A DNA stretch of 53,081 bases, from positions 1 through 53,081 of the forward strand of contig CAKMKL010000161.1 of assembly GCA_927443375.1 (NCBI GenBank). The letters run 5' to 3'. The notes beneath the pieces are model-generated. The model saw nothing but the letters and a program-made list of their open reading frames with translations, was not told the DNA's origin and did not search any database. Shown here one piece after another: positions 851-10,048 of this stretch. This DNA is from an uncultured Paenibacillus sp. (GTDB lineage Bacteria; Bacillota; Bacilli; Paenibacillales; Paenibacillaceae). The position numbers were made by a program, and so were the translations under genes. How positions within the stretch are numbered: the first letter of the stretch is position 1; the number at the start of each line of letters is the position of its first letter.

Positions 851-3800
851 TCACACCTGCCGCAGCTTGATTCTAAAAGTCCTGATCTCGTAAGGCCGGA
901 TCTGGAAGGACAAGCCGTCCTCCCGCCACTCCCCCTGCGGCTCCTCCATTAAATTGCACTCCTGCCAGGATGCGATGGAGTAGGCGCTCTCTATGTGCAC
1001 CTGAGTCCGCGAACCGGCATATTCATGCAGGCGCAGTACAATATCGGCACCATCTTCCGAGCGCTTGACGGCATCGACCAGCACATGTCCGCCTCCGATG
1101 GAGAACAGGGGCTCGCCTTCCAGCTGTCCCGGTACAGCACGCAGGGGATTATTCAGCTCCCAGGCCTCCTGGACCACTCCGCCTTCTACAAAATCACCGG
1201 TATGCGGATATAGCGCATACGTAAAGCTGTGATGCCCCTGATCCTGCTCAGGATCGGGATGAACGGCCGATTTCAGCAGGGTCAGCCGCAGTACACTGTC
1301 TTTGATGTCATAACCGTATTTGCAGTCATTGAGCAGGGCTACGCCATATCCTTTCTCACTGACATCGGCCCACTGGTGGCCTACTGTTTCGAAACGGGCG
1401 TAATCCCAGCTCGTATTCCAGTGAGTCGGCCGTTTGACATTGCCGAACTGGATATCATAAGTCGCTTCCAGCGCATGGATATCGACCGGGAAGGCCGCCT
1501 TCACCAATTGGTTATGCCCCTGCCAGTCGATGACGGTCCGGAAATCTATTCTGGCCGTATCACGGTAGAAGATGATGTCCTGGGTAATCACTGAACGGTG
1601 ATACGCCCAGGCCATGCGCAGCACCGCCCGCAGCGGACCGTTCTCAGTCACCCTGCACTCCGTAAGCTGCGAGATCTCCGTCATCTTCTCCTGATAGAAG
1701 ATGTCGATGTCCCAGGCCTCATAATCCAGCGGCTTGTCTTCGAACACTTGAAGCACATTGCCGCGCTGTCCCGGCGCCAGAAGCTCACGGTCGTTACGCC
1801 GGTCACGTATCGAGATGAAATGGCCCTGGTCATTCCAGGCCGCCTCAACCAGCGGTGTGGTCAGCCGGCAGCCGGCAATCACCGCCAGCTGCCCCGCTTC
1901 CGAAGCCCGGGTATCCGCCGGCTCTGATACAAGCACCACTGTGCCAAGCGCAGGCACGTAAGGAACATACACCAGCCTGCCTCCGTCTTCCGTCGGCTGC
2001 TGCTCCAGCAGCTTCCCGGCACTGTCCCGGATAACAGCCGGGACGTCCGCTTCGCCCGCCAGTTCAACATAACGCGGGCGGTCCCAGGTCGAGCTGTTCA
2101 GCAGCGTGAAGGATTCCGCCCCTTCAGAACCGCCGCTACAGCTGCTGCCCTGAGGGCTACCGTAGCCGCCTTCTTCCCCGCCGCTGTTAATTAAAGCCAG
2201 CGACCGGGCCTCACCTTCCGCATATTCAAGGTCACTGTCCTCGTACACCTCTTTGATCGACGAACCCGGGATAATATCATGGAACTGGTTGCGCAGCAGG
2301 ATCTCCCATATCCCGCGCAGTTCCGCCGCAGGATAAGCCGTTGCTAGATCGCCGCGCCTCACACCTGTCAGCGTATGCAGCCACTCCGCATCGCGGAGCA
2401 GCAGCTCCAGGCGGCGGTTGTATTTTTTATTGTGTGCTTGTGAAGTGTAGGTGCCCCGGTGGCATTCGAAGTATAATTCGCCGTTCCAGGTATGCACCTG
2501 TGATTCAGCATCACGGATACGCTCATGCAGTCCGGTAAAATACTCCCCCGCACTGCCCGTCTGAAGCTTTGGCATCCCCGGAAGCTTATCGAAACGCCGC
2601 CGAAGCTCCAGCATCTCCCGCGTAGGCCCGCCGCCCCCGTCACCCCAGCCGTAAGCAAACAGCAGATGATCGTTGATCTCCTTATCCTGATACGAGTTCC
2701 AGATTCCGCGCAGCAGCGCAGCCGTCATCCGGCCGTTATACGTGTACGCATCCCCGTTCTTCTCCGACGTTGTGATGAAATGGGTGAGAACCTCCGAGCC
2801 ATCCATCCCCCGCCACCAGAAGGTATCATGCGGCATCCGGTTGAACTGGTTCCAGCTGATTTTGGTCGTCATGAAGGTGTCTATGCCCGACCTCCGCAGA
2901 ATCTGCGGCAGCGCCCAGCTGTAGCCGAATACATCCGGCAGCCACAGGTATTTGCTCTCGATTCCGAACTGCTCACGGAGATAGCGCTTGCCCGTCAGAA
3001 TCTGGCGGACCAGCGACTCGCCTGACGGAATATTGCAGTCCGCCTCCAGCCACATCGCCCCTTCCGCCTCCCAGCGTCCTTCCTTGATCCGCTCTGTGAT
3101 CCGCCCGAACAGCTCGGGATAATCACGCTCCAGATAGTCGTACAATTGCGGCTGTGTCTGCAGGAACTGATATTCCGGGAATTCCTCCATCAGCCGCAGC
3201 ACGGTCGAGAAGGAGCGTGCCGTTTTCTCCCGCGTATGCTTCAGCCGCCACAGCCAGGCGACATCAATATGGGTATGGCCCAGGGCCGTAATCGTGACAT
3301 CAAAGGTCCTCGGCATGGCCTCAACCGCCTGATTCAGGCTGGCATCTGCCCGGTACAGCGAGCGGATATGCGCTTCCGAGCCGGGCTCCGACCAGTCAAT
3401 TTCATTGAATGCGTCATTCAGCGCCTTTTTCAGCCACTGCTTCTCCGGCTGGTCGCTGCCGAGGTAACGGAAGGTATCCAATGCCGCCTGCGACATATAG
3501 AACAGATCATCAACCGTCTCATCCAGATAACCCAGCATCGCCTCACTGATCCGGTGCTCCTGAACAACGGGCGGCCCTCCGCCCTCCAGACCTGACCATA
3601 ACCGAAAGGCCAATTCCACAGTCTGTCCGCCTAATTCATCGCCAAAAATAACTTCCCTATGGTTATTATCCACACCCTGATAAGGCGCTCCGTTCACAAA
3701 CAGCAGTGATTCAAACCCGGAGTTGTTGAAGCTCCCCGACTTCCCGAAATCAAATCTGCCTGCGAGCTTAAAGCCCTCTTTTGCTTCGGGCAGTACCACC

Positions 3801-4018
3801 ACGGCACGCAGCCAGACATAACGGTCCCGCCCGCGCCAGTGCTCATGCAGCCTGATTGTGCCATCAAACACAACAGCTCCCGGATAAACACCATTAGCCC
3901 CGTCCTCATCCTCCGCAAGCTCCAGTTCCGTAAGCTCCAGAACCTTGAGGTATCTGTACTTTCCGAGTTCGGCCTGGCGCCGGATCAGCTTTTCTTCGGT
4001 CAAAAACATCCTCTTCAC
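851..4018 (-). CDS. Alpha-mannosidase, glycoside hydrolase family 38
   Basis: 1055 aa ORF; ALGHTHIDVAWLWRLKHTREKTARSFSTVLRLMEEFPEYQFLQTQPQLYDYL, WLEADCNIPSGESLVRQ, WLPDVFGYSWALPQIL are GH38 hallmarks. Confidence 0.95.
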   Translation of the reverse strand: MKRMFLTEEKLIRRQAELGKYRYLKVLELTELELAEDEDGANGVYPGAVVFDGTIRLHEHWRGRDRYVWLRAVVVLPEAKEGFKLAGRFDFGKSGSFNNSGFESLLFVNGAPYQGVDNNHREVIFGDELGGQTVELAFRLWSGLEGGGPPVVQEHRISEAMLGYLDETVDDLFYMSQAALDTFRYLGSDQPEKQWLKKALNDAFNEIDWSEPGSEAHIRSLYRADASLNQAVEAMPRTFDVTITALGHTHIDVAWLWRLKHTREKTARSFSTVLRLMEEFPEYQFLQTQPQLYDYLERDYPELFGRITERIKEGRWEAEGAMWLEADCNIPSGESLVRQILTGKRYLREQFGIESKYLWLPDVFGYSWALPQILRRSGIDTFMTTKISWNQFNRMPHDTFWWRGMDGSEVLTHFITTSEKNGDAYTYNGRMTAALLRGIWNSYQDKEINDHLLFAYGWGDGGGGPTREMLELRRRFDKLPGMPKLQTGSAGEYFTGLHERIRDAESQVHTWNGELYFECHRGTYTSQAHNKKYNRRLELLLRDAEWLHTLTGVRRGDLATAYPAAELRGIWEILLRNQFHDIIPGSSIKEVYEDSDLEYAEGEARSLALINSGGEEGGYGSPQGSSCSGGSEGAESFTLLNSSTWDRPRYVELAGEADVPAVIRDSAGKLLEQQPTEDGGRLVYVPYVPALGTVVLVSEPADTRASEAGQLAVIAGCRLTTPLVEAAWNDQGHFISIRDRRNDRELLAPGQRGNVLQVFEDKPLDYEAWDIDIFYQEKMTEISQLTECRVTENGPLRAVLRMAWAYHRSVITQDIIFYRDTARIDFRTVIDWQGHNQLVKAAFPVDIHALEATYDIQFGNVKRPTHWNTSWDYARFETVGHQWADVSEKGYGVALLNDCKYGYDIKDSVLRLTLLKSAVHPDPEQDQGHHSFTYALYPHTGDFVEGGVVQEAWELNNPLRAVPGQLEGEPLFSIGGGHVLVDAVKRSEDGADIVLRLHEYAGSRTQVHIESAYSIASWQECNLMEEPQGEWREDGLSFQIRPYEIRTFRIKLRQV

Positions 4019-4167: not shown

Positions 4168-5079
4168 ATGCTTGAAAGCGACCTGTTATATGAGCAAGGG
4201 TATAGCGTACGCATCAACACTCCGGCTGACCCGCTTTTTTACTATTTTGACTATGACCAGCGGTCCCACAACATCAATATGGAGTTTCAGCATGACCACG
4301 ATTTCTACGAAATTCATATTCTGCTCGATTCCAGAGCCACCCATATCATCGAAGGCAACGTACATGCCCTGCGGCAGTATGACATCGTTCTGCTCCGTCC
4401 GTTCCGGCTTCACATGACCCAGTATCCCGTTGGTCCGCCGCATAAACGGCTGATCATCAACTTTGCCGTGCCCACCAATACACCCGGTTTCGAAACCGCT
4501 TACAAAAATATCCTGCTCCCTTTCGGAGAAGAAGTGCCGATCTACCGGTTAACGGGGGAGCCGCGCAGCGCTGTATTCGCCCCCCTTAACGCCATCTTTA
4601 CCTTGTCACACGACGCTTCACCGCTGAGTCCGGTGTTGATTCACAGCCTGTTCCAGCAGTTTCTGTGCGCTTTAACCCAGCAGCGGGAGATGAACAGCTA
4701 TGTACTGGAGGAAATCGGGAACGCGACCATGCAAAAAATATATTCCATCACCGCCTGCATCCATAGCCGCTACAGCAGCGAGCTGACCCTGGATTCGATC
4801 TCCAGAGAGTTCTATATCAGCCCCTACTATTTGTCGCACCAGTTCAAAGCAGTCACCGGCTTTACCTTGACTGAATATATCCAGATGACCCGGGTCCGCA
4901 AAGCCCAGCAGCTGCTGATTCACACCCGGCACAAGATCTCCGCCATCGCCGAGCAGTGCGGCTTCAACAGCTTTTCGCAGTTCAACCGCATCTTCAATAA
5001 GCAGAGCGGCATGTCTCCGTCTGCCTTCCGCAAGCAGCAGGCTTCCTCCGGGGCATCCGCCCCCACACTGTCTTACTGA
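4168..5079 (+). CDS. AraC family transcriptional regulator
   Basis: N-terminal cupin-like region and C-terminal HTH_18 (LTLDSISREFYISPYYLSHQFKAVTGFTLTEYIQMTRVRKAQQLL...SQFNRIFNKQSGMSPSAFR). Confidence 0.92.
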   Translation: MLESDLLYEQGYSVRINTPADPLFYYFDYDQRSHNINMEFQHDHDFYEIHILLDSRATHIIEGNVHALRQYDIVLLRPFRLHMTQYPVGPPHKRLIINFAVPTNTPGFETAYKNILLPFGEEVPIYRLTGEPRSAVFAPLNAIFTLSHDASPLSPVLIHSLFQQFLCALTQQREMNSYVLEEIGNATMQKIYSITACIHSRYSSELTLDSISREFYISPYYLSHQFKAVTGFTLTEYIQMTRVRKAQQLLIHTRHKISAIAEQCGFNSFSQFNRIFNKQSGMSPSAFRKQQASSGASAPTLSY

Positions 5080-5158: not shown

Positions 5159-5163
5159 TATTA

Positions 5164-5247
5164 TGCGGTCGAGAGGACTCGAACCTCCACGGTATTGCTA
5201 CCACACGGACCTGAACCGTGCGCGTCTGCCAATTCCGCCACGACCGC
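5164..5247 (-). tRNA. tRNA-Leu (anticodon CAG)
   Basis: Minus strand GCGGTCGTGGCGGAATTGGCAGACGCGCACGGTTCAGGTCCGTGTGGTAGCAATACCGTGGAGGTTCGAGTCCTCTCGACCGCA: 7-bp acceptor stem, long variable arm, GGTTCGAGTCC T-arm, TTCAGGT anticodon loop. CCA not encoded. Confidence 0.95.
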
Positions 5248-5485
5248 AAAGTAATGTTTATTGCAGTGCAGGAATTAATATATCATGAATCCCGGGACTT
5301 CGCAAGCTTTTTTTATTTTCGAAATAAATTCTCTCCAATGAATGCCCCGCCGACCTGCAGCAGCACTAACTCAACTGAGGGTTGGATTTCCTGCTCTGAT
5401 CCCCCTCCTTCAATCGCTGTTCATTTTGCCGGATGGAATTATAATGAAATTACGACGTCGAATTCAAATTCGGGAGAAGAACAAT

Positions 5486-7270
5486 ATGATCAGCAGTGAA
5501 AAAGTAGGCAAGCGGATCGCCATGCTCCGCCGGGAAAAACAATTATCGCAGGAGCAGTTAGCGGAGCAGCTGCATGTCAGTGCCCAGGCGGTGTCCAAGT
5601 GGGAAACCGGCAAATCGCTGCCCGAAACAGCTACCCTGCCGCTGCTCTCCGGCATTCTGGGCCATTCGATCGACAGCATTCTGCTGCCGCAGGAGCTCGC
5701 GGTTCTGTCAGCAGTGTATACCGACGGATACGAACAGCAGGATGTCACCCATTTTGTTAACCAATTCATTACCGGCAGTAAGCTTACTTTGGCCATCAGC
5801 GATCAGAGCTTCCCGCAGTCCATTCATAGCGACCGCTGCAAGCTGCTTATCATCAAATACGAGACGCCCGCCGGTATCTACTCCACCTACGTGCTGAAGG
5901 ATCAGCACCTGGCGATCGACGTACATTCGAAAGGCTATACTCTTGGCAAAAGCGAGCTGGAGATTGTTCATGCCGCTTACGGCAATGAACATGCCAGCCG
6001 GGATGTGCTGGGGAAGATGAAGCACTATGCTTATTTTCAGTGGCCGCATTTTACGGTAGATCAGGAGTTCTTCCCTAGCGCAATGGGGCATGAGGGCAAT
6101 GAGTATCTGCTGCTCGTCTACCTGAATGCAGACGGAATTCATGCGCTCAGCTGCATGGAGGGGGAACAGGTCCACTACAGCCCTGACCGGATGAGGCTTT
6201 TTGCGGGCGGGTCTTCCCGTCAGCATTACATCGCAGAGAACGTAGGGCGCCTTGGTTTTGGCAAGGGAATGGATTGCTCGTGGGCAGGGGCGCTTTATAC
6301 CTCACTGTCCGCTATGGGTATAGATACCCGCTATGAGGAGGTTATGGGAGTTTCCGGAGCATGCTGGCGGGTGGCTTTTACACCGGTGTGGGACTACAGT
6401 TCAGCAGATGCTCTCGTCGCCTATGACTATGCCGCGCCAGCCTTCAGCGCTTATGGGCTTAAGGCCAGCTGGGCGAACCGGCTTACACCTGAGGAACGCA
6501 GACGGGAGAAGCTGCAAATCATGGAGAGCCTCCATAAACATCAGCTGCCGGTTGCTCTGAATCCAAGGGTCGCCCCCGAGTGGGGAGTCATTACGGGATA
6601 TCTAGATAACGGGGGCACCCTGCTGTGCCGCAGCTATTTTGATGACGAGACCTTTAGTGAGCTGCAGGAGGATCCGGAATTCCGGGAGGCTATGGAGATC
6701 AGCAAAGGGCATTTGTACGTAGACCATTGGCCGTATAAGCTGCTCTATATCGAAAAGCATGGCCCGGTCCGGCCGGTGCTGGACAGTCTGTATGCCTCCC
6801 TCCAGGTGAAGCTGGACTCTATGCAGGCTGGAGAGAATCATGGTTACCGGCTGGGATACAGCGCTTTGGCCGCCTGGGCGGAGGGCCTTCTTGATCACGC
6901 CTGGTACCAGGCAGCCGATGCTGAGACGTTTACACGCCGCTACAGCGTGAATCACTTCTGCCTGATGGCGCTGAATGATGCCCGGAGAAGCGCTGCCGCC
7001 TACTTGCAAGCCTCGCTGCCGCTTTTGCAGGACCCTGCCGCTTACGCGCTCTTGGGGGAAATAGTTGCCGTATATGAACAAATGTACACTCTGCTCGATC
7101 ATTTCTTCAGCCATATGAAGGAACCGGCTGCCCTGCAGCAGGCCCAGGCTTCCCCGAAGCAGCTGTGGGACCAGAGCCAGCGGGAGCAGCAGGCGGAGCT
7201 TCTGCAGACCGTGGCCTCGCTCGAACGCCGGGGCGATGAGCTGGCCGGGCGGCTGCTGGAGCATATCTGA
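5486..7270 (+). CDS. XRE-family HTH regulator with large C-terminal region (duplicated DUF3395-like segments and a BtrH/C39-like papain fold candidate)
   Basis: MISSEKVGKRIAMLRREKQLSQEQLAEQLHVSAQAVSKWETGKSLPE is HTH_3. Start taken at the in-frame ATG 5486 rather than ORF-track 5342. C-terminal GMDCSWAGALYTSLSAMGIDTRYEEVMGVSG resembles BtrH_N-type sequences. Confidence 0.85.
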   Translation: MISSEKVGKRIAMLRREKQLSQEQLAEQLHVSAQAVSKWETGKSLPETATLPLLSGILGHSIDSILLPQELAVLSAVYTDGYEQQDVTHFVNQFITGSKLTLAISDQSFPQSIHSDRCKLLIIKYETPAGIYSTYVLKDQHLAIDVHSKGYTLGKSELEIVHAAYGNEHASRDVLGKMKHYAYFQWPHFTVDQEFFPSAMGHEGNEYLLLVYLNADGIHALSCMEGEQVHYSPDRMRLFAGGSSRQHYIAENVGRLGFGKGMDCSWAGALYTSLSAMGIDTRYEEVMGVSGACWRVAFTPVWDYSSADALVAYDYAAPAFSAYGLKASWANRLTPEERRREKLQIMESLHKHQLPVALNPRVAPEWGVITGYLDNGGTLLCRSYFDDETFSELQEDPEFREAMEISKGHLYVDHWPYKLLYIEKHGPVRPVLDSLYASLQVKLDSMQAGENHGYRLGYSALAAWAEGLLDHAWYQAADAETFTRRYSVNHFCLMALNDARRSAAAYLQASLPLLQDPAAYALLGEIVAVYEQMYTLLDHFFSHMKEPAALQQAQASPKQLWDQSQREQQAELLQTVASLERRGDELAGRLLEHI

Positions 7271-7690: not shown

Positions 7691-10048
7691 TCACTCCCTT
7701 GTGGAGGCAGCTGACGCATAGCTCATCATAAAATCTACCAGGGACGGGGCCGGCAGCGGTCTGCTGATGAAGTAGCCTTGAAGCTCATCGCTGCCAAGAT
7801 TGCACAGCAGGTCAAACTGTTCCTTCAGTTCCACACCTTCGGAAACAACACGCAGTCCGAGGTTGTGGCTGAGTTCGATGATCGCGCGGACCAGTGTATC
7901 GTCGGAAGCCCCTGGCTGAATACCGGCTACGAAGGAGCGGTCAATCTTGATAAGATCTACCGGGAAGGTCCGCAGGTAGCTCAGCGACGAGAAGCCGGTG
8001 CCAAAATCATCGAGCGAAATGCAAAAGCCCATGCTGCGAAGATCTGCGAGAGAGGTGATGATGGATTCGTCCGACATCAGCATCGTCTCGGTAATTTCCA
8101 GCTCCAGGCTATATGCTGTAAGCCCGTTGTCTGCCAGCGCCTCCTTCAATTGCTCCGGCAGACCGGGCTGCATAAGCTGCAGTCCCGAGATATTGACGGC
8201 TGCCTTTAGCCGGATGCCTTGATCCCGGAAGCTGCGCAGGTCTGCACAGACCTTGCGGAGCACCCAGTTGCCGATACCGAGGATCGATCCGCCGGCTTCC
8301 GCCAGCGGAATGAATTCAGCGGGTGAGACCGGCCCGAACGTTGGGCTTTTCCAGCGCAGCAGCGCCTCAACCTTGACGATATCTTTCTTCGATGCCGAGA
8401 GAATCGGCTGATAATACATCTCCAGCTCGCCGTTGTCGACGGCGGAGCGCAGCTGTCTCCCGATCACTTTTTTGCGGCTGAAAGCCTCTTCCAGCCTTTC
8501 CGAATAACGGAATATATTGTTCCGTCCGTTCTCCTTGACCTGGAACATCGCCAAATCGGCAGCCTTGACGAGAAGTTCGGCGTCCTCACCATTCTGCGGA
8601 TAGATGCTGACCCCGATACTCGCCGTACTATAAAATAACTGGCCGTTTAGCGTATGCGGTTCAGCCAGCACTTGCTGGATTTTGGCGATCTGGGCCTGAA
8701 TATCCTCTGTACCGGAAAAACGGGAGAGAAGAATCGTGAACTCATCCCCGCCAAGCCGGGACACCAGGTCATCCGGTCCGACTGCACCGGCTAGCCGGTC
8801 GGCAATCTGCTTGAGGACCGCATCCCCGAAGTCATGCCCCCAGGTGTCATTGACCGCTTTGAAATGATCGAGGTCGATGAACAGCAGAACAATCTGCCGG
8901 CCCTGGATTTTTGCCTTCTGAATAACCCGGTTCAGCGACTCAAAAAAGAATGCGCGGTTCGGCAGCTGGGTTAACGGGTCGACCATCGCCTGCCGGTGCA
9001 GCTCTTCCTGTGCAGTTTCGAGCGAGGATATCATCCGGTTGAACTCCACTTCTACCTCACTGAGTTCATCCCGTCCCCTGATATCGAGACGGATCGACAG
9101 ATCACGGCTTTTGCCGATCATCCGGATCCCGCGGACCAGCGCCGCCATCCGGGAGAGAATAGTACGTTTCACGAACAGCAGGCTGAGCAGGCATATACCC
9201 AGGGTAGAGATGACGAAGAACAGCGTGAAATTAGCCATCGCTTGTTTGCCGATTTCATAAATATGACGCGGCTGCTCTATGGATATCACGATTCCCGGAT
9301 TGCCGAACAGATCGTAGATAACGGCATGACCCTCCAGCCGGTTTTCGGGCAAATAACTCACCCATATGTTCTGCCCCCGGCTCTCCTTCAGCAGGTCACC
9401 AGAAGCCCTCTCAACGGTTATACCGGACGGACTAAGGGCACCGACCCGGCTGATCTCTGTATCGTCCAGCTTCCGGCCGGCCACTGCCATCCCGGCGACG
9501 GGACCTGTCATATCATTGTGGAGAACAGGCTGTAAGGTAATCAGCATGGGACCGTCATTCAAGAGGACCATTCCGGTGAAATGGTCCTCTGGATTCGTAA
9601 GAAGATCCCGCTGTTCCCGGATATCGTCAAAAAAGCTGACGATATCCGGCGTCACTGGTGCTACCGTCTCCCCGCTGGAATCATACAAGCCGCTATAGAC
9701 GAGACTTCCGCTCCGGTTGATCAGTGCCATAAGATCAAACCGGTTGCTCTGAAAAGTCCCCTCATCGTAATTGCTGAGAATATAGGAATTCTGCAGGTCC
9801 CCCGACGTTCGGGAGGAGACATACTCATAGGTCTCGTCCCATGTCGAATAATTGAGCATCGTCTCGTTCATACCCTGAAGCTCCGATTCGTAGGTCTGGA
9901 TGATATCGGACATGCGCCCTTCCAGCGCTTCCTGGTCTAACTCCGTGAACCGGTCCAGAAAAATCTCCTGCGAAATCACGTACGTGGAGGCGAGGGCGAG
10001 CAGAGAAATAGTTATAATAAACAGTACAATCTTGGTCCGCAGCTTCAT
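7691..10048 (-). CDS. Membrane c-di-GMP enzyme: CHASE4-like sensor, HAMP, GGDEF, EAL
   Basis: N-terminal TM, YSTWDETYEYV (CHASE4-like), RLGGDEFTILLSR (GGDEF), KVEALLRWKSP and DDFGTGFSSLSYLRTFPVDLIKIDRSFV (EAL). Confidence 0.95.
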   Translation of the reverse strand: MKLRTKIVLFIITISLLALASTYVISQEIFLDRFTELDQEALEGRMSDIIQTYESELQGMNETMLNYSTWDETYEYVSSRTSGDLQNSYILSNYDEGTFQSNRFDLMALINRSGSLVYSGLYDSSGETVAPVTPDIVSFFDDIREQRDLLTNPEDHFTGMVLLNDGPMLITLQPVLHNDMTGPVAGMAVAGRKLDDTEISRVGALSPSGITVERASGDLLKESRGQNIWVSYLPENRLEGHAVIYDLFGNPGIVISIEQPRHIYEIGKQAMANFTLFFVISTLGICLLSLLFVKRTILSRMAALVRGIRMIGKSRDLSIRLDIRGRDELSEVEVEFNRMISSLETAQEELHRQAMVDPLTQLPNRAFFFESLNRVIQKAKIQGRQIVLLFIDLDHFKAVNDTWGHDFGDAVLKQIADRLAGAVGPDDLVSRLGGDEFTILLSRFSGTEDIQAQIAKIQQVLAEPHTLNGQLFYSTASIGVSIYPQNGEDAELLVKAADLAMFQVKENGRNNIFRYSERLEEAFSRKKVIGRQLRSAVDNGELEMYYQPILSASKKDIVKVEALLRWKSPTFGPVSPAEFIPLAEAGGSILGIGNWVLRKVCADLRSFRDQGIRLKAAVNISGLQLMQPGLPEQLKEALADNGLTAYSLELEITETMLMSDESIITSLADLRSMGFCISLDDFGTGFSSLSYLRTFPVDLIKIDRSFVAGIQPGASDDTLVRAIIELSHNLGLRVVSEGVELKEQFDLLCNLGSDELQGYFISRPLPAPSLVDFMMSYASAASTRE

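Follow-up and report, generated by a model that had tools for sequence, protein, structure and literature searches.

An XRE-family regulator of Paenibacillus with a putative sensor module of the BtrH/AziU3 type that lacks the catalytic triad

Within the window (the whole stretch of DNA analyzed here, 53,081 nucleotides from an uncultured Paenibacillus sp.), one gene joins an XRE-type helix-turn-helix (HTH) domain to two middle domains and a C-terminal module of papain-like fold. The encoded protein is of a known kind, the one-component regulators with enzyme-derived sensors, here with a triad-less BtrH/AziU3-type module that belongs to a wider family without a name. Taken as a whole, we consider it reasonably probable that the protein is an autoregulated transcription regulator of this one-component type, in which the BtrH/AziU3-family module serves as the sensor. 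The parts of the gene are as follows.

5486 to 7270, + strand: XRE regulator gene, complete, 594 amino acids, the open reading frame of the original prediction
5486 to 5683, + strand: N-terminal XRE/Cro-type HTH, residues 1 to 66 (Pfam HTH_3, Foldseek)
5693 to 5920, + strand: middle domain copy 1, residues ~70 to 145, duplicate of copy 2, with predicted strands from 72-79 to 141-145
5954 to 6193, + strand: middle domain copy 2, residues ~157 to 236, with the same strand/helix order (hhalign)
6227 to 6775, + strand: papain-like (BtrH_N/AziU3-like) domain, residues ~248 to 430 (hhalign, Foldseek)
6275 to 6277, + strand: Cys264, at the catalytic-Cys position, kept in the XRE clade and rare elsewhere
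6578 to 6580, + strand: Glu365, at the catalytic-His position, conserved across the superfamily
6776 to 7258, + strand: C-terminal helical domain, residues ~431 to 591, in DUF4872-like position (hhalign)

The reading frame runs from an ATG at 5486 to a TGA at 7268-7270, is preceded by a ribosome site (GGGAG, 5472-5476), and its translation contains all peptides quoted in the original prediction. The source species is a Paenibacillus near P. auburnensis and P. ihuae, and the P. ihuae ortholog is 94% identical. The gene is present as a single copy in its own genome, where the one further match is a weak HTH, and a profile without the HTH matched 46 of 400 Paenibacillaceae genomes, about 40 of them with full-length XRE orthologs. 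A dN/dS of 0.12-0.20 for the whole gene indicates purifying selection, which is seen in all four parts. Beyond the HTH, searches of Pfam, NCBIfam and PDB sequences returned no known family for the protein or for 27 of its orthologs. In P. auburnensis, the ortholog (L003/L039, G030; 94% identical) carries an in-frame TAG at about the Gln111 codon, in the middle domain, which is either a natural null or a sequencing error. In a further two species (G770:C1:235682-237239 and G781:C227:756-2316), the ortholog is divided between two fragments or frames, which suggests that some lineages can do without the gene.

The gene is monocistronic in the window. Upstream, on the other strand, lies a tRNA-Leu(CAG) at 5163-5248, and a tRNA-Leu is also found nearby in several ortholog genomes; downstream follows a convergent gene at 7691-10048, which from its sequence we take to encode a GGDEF/EAL protein. 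A large protein encoded at 851-4018 (- strand), presumably a GH38-type alpha-mannosidase, is divergent from an AraC regulator gene at 4168-5079 (+ strand), and this pair is kept in 7 of the 18 compared neighborhoods. The neighborhood comparison revealed no neighbor or operon partner common to all orthologs, and none that names a pathway. A phage or defense origin was considered and rejected, as there was no phage match and PADLOC matches were confined to the HTH; the BFVD viral structure library likewise gave no match. Plasmid-borne homologs were set aside as well: the matches were confined to the HTH or the sigma-factor part, save for one ECF-type relative, which sits in a 2.7-Mb replicon of P. 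cellulosilyticus.

The N-terminal part of the original prediction, an XRE HTH followed by two similar segments, is supported by our analysis. Pfam HTH_3 matches residues 11-62 (E 1.3e-10; 41.6 bits versus a cut-off of 23), and the structural matches of the domain by Foldseek include the P22 c2 repressor and ImmR, placing the protein in the XRE family. The middle segments are a true tandem duplication of one domain: residues 68-145 and 152-236 align with an hhalign E value of 2.9e-7 over 75 columns (18 sequences each), compared with 0.14-0.53 for reversed or column-shuffled controls, and in the AlphaFold model (mean pLDDT 86) strands and helices follow the same predicted order in both. The proposed assignment of these segments to DUF3395 (DnaJ C11-like), instead, found no support in Pfam, the family search or the PDB profile search. 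The corresponding family, DnaJ-like_C11_C (PF11875), matched neither the whole protein nor any of six isolated segments, had no match in 21 genomes including that of the window, and a middle-region profile had no match in the PDB. The middle region is confined to the XRE clade, being missing from relatives of the AraC, ECF and solo types; its two domains would probably link the other parts or help the protein to dimerize.

The origin of the C-terminal module becomes apparent through its relatives. A profile of residues 70-594 reaches other Bacillota, in which the module sits on an AraC HTH or stands alone. When compared with Pfam, AraC-type relatives matched, below the cut-off and at the right place, Peptidase_C39_2 (E 0.019 and 0.051), Peptidase_C10 and BtrH_N (E 0.11, the best of any relative; the window protein itself has no BtrH_N match). 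Because of these hits, we assembled a reference set (the BtrH set) of ten BtrH_N proteins in which the triad is intact, taken from genomes related to that of the window. The combined module profile aligned to this set across both halves (hhalign E 4.7e-14, probability 98), with reversed or permuted (column-shuffled) controls at E 0.12-0.9. Each half is also recognized alone, the papain half at E 2.4e-7 and the helical half at E 3.7e-8, while a cross-control of one half versus the other gave E 0.45. Modules of the AraC, ECF and solo types each reached E 2e-13 to 2e-14 (reversed controls 0.26-0.38). The XRE clade alone gave E 0.002 against the BtrH set, and E 6e-20 to 2e-36 against AraC, ECF and solo modules (AraC 6.6e-33; ECF 6e-20); its placement in the BtrH/AziU3 superfamily therefore rests on this chain of relatives, together with the structural model.

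That model, computed by AlphaFold for the module alone, has a pLDDT of 86 and a pTM of 0.87. Searching the PDB by Foldseek with either the full or the module model returned the chains of AziU3 as the sole significant matches; for the module model the E values are 7.4e-7 to 7.4e-6, with whole-molecule TM scores of 0.44-0.49 (0.46/0.49 for the best match) that lie just below 0.5. AziU3 was also recovered by the BtrH-set profile (E 2.8e-7), so that the evidence from fold and from profiles forms a closed loop. Both lines of evidence, for the papain-like and the helical half alike, place the module in the BtrH/AziU3 superfamily and bear out the earlier suggestion that an HTH is combined here with a papain fold of the BtrH/C39-like kind.

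BtrH is the butirosin acyltransferase. Proteins with BtrH_N (PF14399) and DUF4872 (PF16169) share the two-domain order of the module, as reflected in the profile E value of 4.7e-14, and one ECF-type relative touches DUF4872 at E 0.028. In contrast to these proteins, in which Cys, His and Asp are invariant, the module does not keep the triad, stays below the Pfam cut-offs and is fused to transcription factors. AziU3 (PDB 7wuw, 8gs1) aligns with both the papain-like and the helical half, but it is a biosynthetic enzyme that works with a partner, AziU2, has no DNA-binding domain and is only 12-13% identical to the module. The complex of AziU3/U2 with bound substrate is mentioned in the AlphaFold 3 paper, which calls it a novel fold (PMC11168924). 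Peptidase C39-like proteins (PF13529; AraC-type relatives at E 0.019-0.05) belong to the same papain-like superfamily, in whose classification BtrH_N stands near C39 and C70 (PMC10318531); the module differs from them in falling below the cut-off, in lacking the catalytic His and in its extra helical domain.

The module also departs from these enzymes at the catalytic positions. Cys16, His126 and Asp142 are invariant among the ten proteins of the BtrH set; in the alignment to this set, Cys264 falls on Cys16, Glu365 on His126 and Arg382 on Asp142, the Asp position being Arg382 or Ser383 in the window protein. Across all classes, 59 modules were compared: 50 of them have Glu at position 365, 5 have Asp, 4 have some other residue, and none has His. 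Cys at position 264 is found in all 10 XRE-clade modules and in three others only, with mostly T, I, N, S or D elsewhere. A joint alignment of XRE-type with AraC- and solo-type relatives gave the same picture, with Glu365 invariant (28/28) and Cys264 not conserved. Other positions are kept more widely: position 290 is Ser or Thr in 58 of the 59 modules, and in the helical domain Gly457 is invariant (59/59) and the position of Arg500 is Arg or Lys in 58. As judged from these alignments, the papain-type Cys-His-Asp triad is lost from the module family, together with the Cys-His pair of Peptidase C39 and C39_2, and the module is probably non-catalytic. The original prediction had proposed a catalytic Cys in GMDCSWAG with a His/Asp partner; the Cys is fixed only in the XRE clade, and the partners are not found. 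An HTH protein with a working BtrH/C39-type cysteine hydrolase or acyltransferase, to which the fold and the position of the Cys would point, is accordingly very improbable, since no XRE-clade member has either the His or the Asp of the triad.

What is kept instead is an acidic residue at the His position. That it is conserved although the family has otherwise diverged to about 20% identity points to a retained binding or structural role, and we infer that the role of Glu365 is ligand binding. One could also imagine a trigger enzyme with an altered active site built on Cys264 (or Glu365), whose DNA binding would depend on turnover or on whether substrate is bound. Within 27 orthologs, D263, C264, S265 and W266 of GMDCSWAG are invariant, as are E365, W366, G367, V368 and I369 of PEWGVITGY, and the invariant D263-C264 of the XRE clade could reflect retained chemistry. 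Moreover, the fold is capable of chemistry other than peptide cleavage, as AziU3/U2 forms an aziridine by sulfate displacement (PMC12559475). However, AziU3 itself retains, in the profile alignment, the His and Asp positions where the module family has Glu and Arg/Ser, and the Cys is nearly absent outside the XRE clade; we thus regard a trigger enzyme as unlikely.

A non-catalytic, ligand-binding module would be in keeping with its distribution. When one and the same module is repeatedly fused to transcription factors of unrelated kinds, this is a classic sign of an input domain. A module profile search (E ≤ 1e-8) detected the module in 169 of 380 Paenibacillaceae genomes and, in a set sampled across the phylum, in 36 of 399; it is attached to XRE, AraC, ECF sigma-factor or WYL regulators, or its gene lies next to an AraC gene. 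The 49 loci that were inspected include 11 proteins with an AraC HTH, one WYL regulator (E 1.6e-16) and 18 proteins with a long N-terminal part (over 200 residues), which we labeled ECF; four of these 18 were tested and all carry Pfam sigma70 regions 2 and 4, the other 14 being labeled by length and locus. Solo modules adjoin or overlap AraC genes at four loci (L086, L095, L262 and L264). In a tree of the modules, the XRE clade forms one group if it is taken to include L085, in which the HTH is truncated or disrupted close to the end of a contig, and the labels change at least five times for AraC and at least twice for ECF on well-supported branches of what is a quick tree with some long branches. 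Of the original idea of a ligand-sensing one-component regulator with catalytic activity, the sensing half is thus strengthened by the four kinds of fusion, while the catalytic half fails for want of a His.

Several loci are of interest in their own right. In L264 (1790-3309), a short AraC HTH reading frame overlaps the module frame in another frame, a split or frameshifted form of the AraC fusion. ECF sigma factors with a papain-like C-terminal extension of ~330 residues occur in Paenibacillaceae (L236-L247, L250-L253, L255, L271), and our search of the open literature turned up no account of a group of this kind. Similarly, no report of an HTH-module fusion was found in the open literature, which, with subscription journals outside its scope, is weak evidence of novelty.

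An alternative function for such a module is that of a protein-interaction or oligomerization scaffold, with regulation by a partner protein and not by a small ligand. AziU3 functions in complex with AziU2 (PDB 7wuw, 8gs1), and the extensions of ECF42 sigma factors are believed to work through protein contacts (PMC8999054). Moreover, one or two solo module genes directly adjoin the ECF-module genes in L244, L250 and L251, whose products perhaps form hetero-oligomers by analogy to AziU3/U2. In L086 (G390), an AraC gene is followed by three tandem module proteins of 398, 415 and 599 amino acids, the third with what by sequence impression we take to be a GNAT-like N-terminus. On the other hand, the window gene is monocistronic and lacks a conserved partner gene, and a polar residue, Glu365, is conserved at the relatives' active-site position, which makes a pure scaffold improbable to our minds.

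For the DNA-binding half of the protein, the sequence upstream of the gene offers a candidate target.

5372 to 5384, no strand: IR1, inverted repeat CAACTGAGGGTTG, consensus CAACYNNNRGTTG, candidate operator, conserved upstream
5440 to 5445, + strand: -10 box TATAAT of the XRE regulator gene, invariant in 18 orthologs, with a weak -35
5452 to 5460, no strand: IR2, inverted repeat ACGACGTCG, at the likely transcription start, identical in 17 of 18 orthologs

CAACYNNNRGTTG is present in all 18 aligned ortholog upstream regions. When 11 genomes were searched for IR1 followed by TATAAT at 45-75 nt, the pattern was found in each of them at the promoter of the XRE gene, with a nearly fixed span of 71-75 nt; there was one further match in one genome, and reversed-pattern controls gave 0-1 per genome. 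IR2 is almost as constant, the one deviating ortholog having a 1-nt insertion that preserves the repeat. However, the most distant XRE ortholog (L096, 38% identity) retains IR1, while IR2 is replaced by GAAGGCGCCTTC, a perfect palindrome at the same place after TATAAT. For this reason, we rejected IR2 as the conserved operator and prefer IR1, which, going by its conservation, is the likeliest candidate for the site at which the XRE protein would bind its own promoter. The strict 15-bp form of IR1 has 1-5 sites per genome where present. Nine further sites were inspected, and 8 of them lie inside unrelated genes; a wider regulon based on this strict site was therefore rejected. Such a near-private, conserved repeat suggests autoregulation, and its location upstream of the weak -35 is as compatible with activation or looping as with repression. 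Alternatively, IR1 could be bound by another regulator.

Taken together, these observations fit a regulator in which the XRE HTH would bind DNA, probably at IR1 in its own promoter, and the papain-fold module would use what was once the active-site cleft to bind a ligand, either a small molecule or a metabolite linked to a carrier or a peptide; ligand binding would then change the state of the attached DNA-binding part. Our best reading of the alignments is that the module is a pseudo-enzyme that senses a ligand on behalf of transcription factors. Since the substrates of BtrH and AziU3 are antibiotic intermediates derived from amino acids, our best guess by analogy is a putative natural-product-like ligand. 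It is tempting to go further, with somewhat less than even confidence, and to see here an undescribed, widespread sensory domain of the Bacillota, with Glu in place of His, that senses antibiotic-like or carrier-bound metabolites and was recruited several times independently as the input of XRE, AraC, WYL and ECF proteins. Parallels for such an arrangement exist in the MocR/GabR and Rob/GyrI-like regulators, in which an enzyme-derived or enzyme-like C-terminal sensor sits on an HTH, although folds and ligands differ. Among sigma factors, ECF41 and related groups carry SnoaL-like C-terminal extensions that control the sigma factor and are thought to respond to small molecules (PMC8999054). They share with the module family an enzyme-fold extension on a transcription factor; their fold, however, is unrelated, and the papain-like module is also found on XRE, AraC and WYL regulators.

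A small number of folds accounts for most sensor domains of bacterial transcription factors. A sensor of papain fold, derived from biosynthetic enzymes and attached to four unrelated DNA-binding or sigma domains would represent a new input module. A common, testable mechanism would then cover hundreds of unannotated Paenibacillus regulators, including the ECF sigma factors with their large unnamed extension, and both halves of this hypothesis can be tested directly, one through Glu365 and the other through the near-private promoter repeat.
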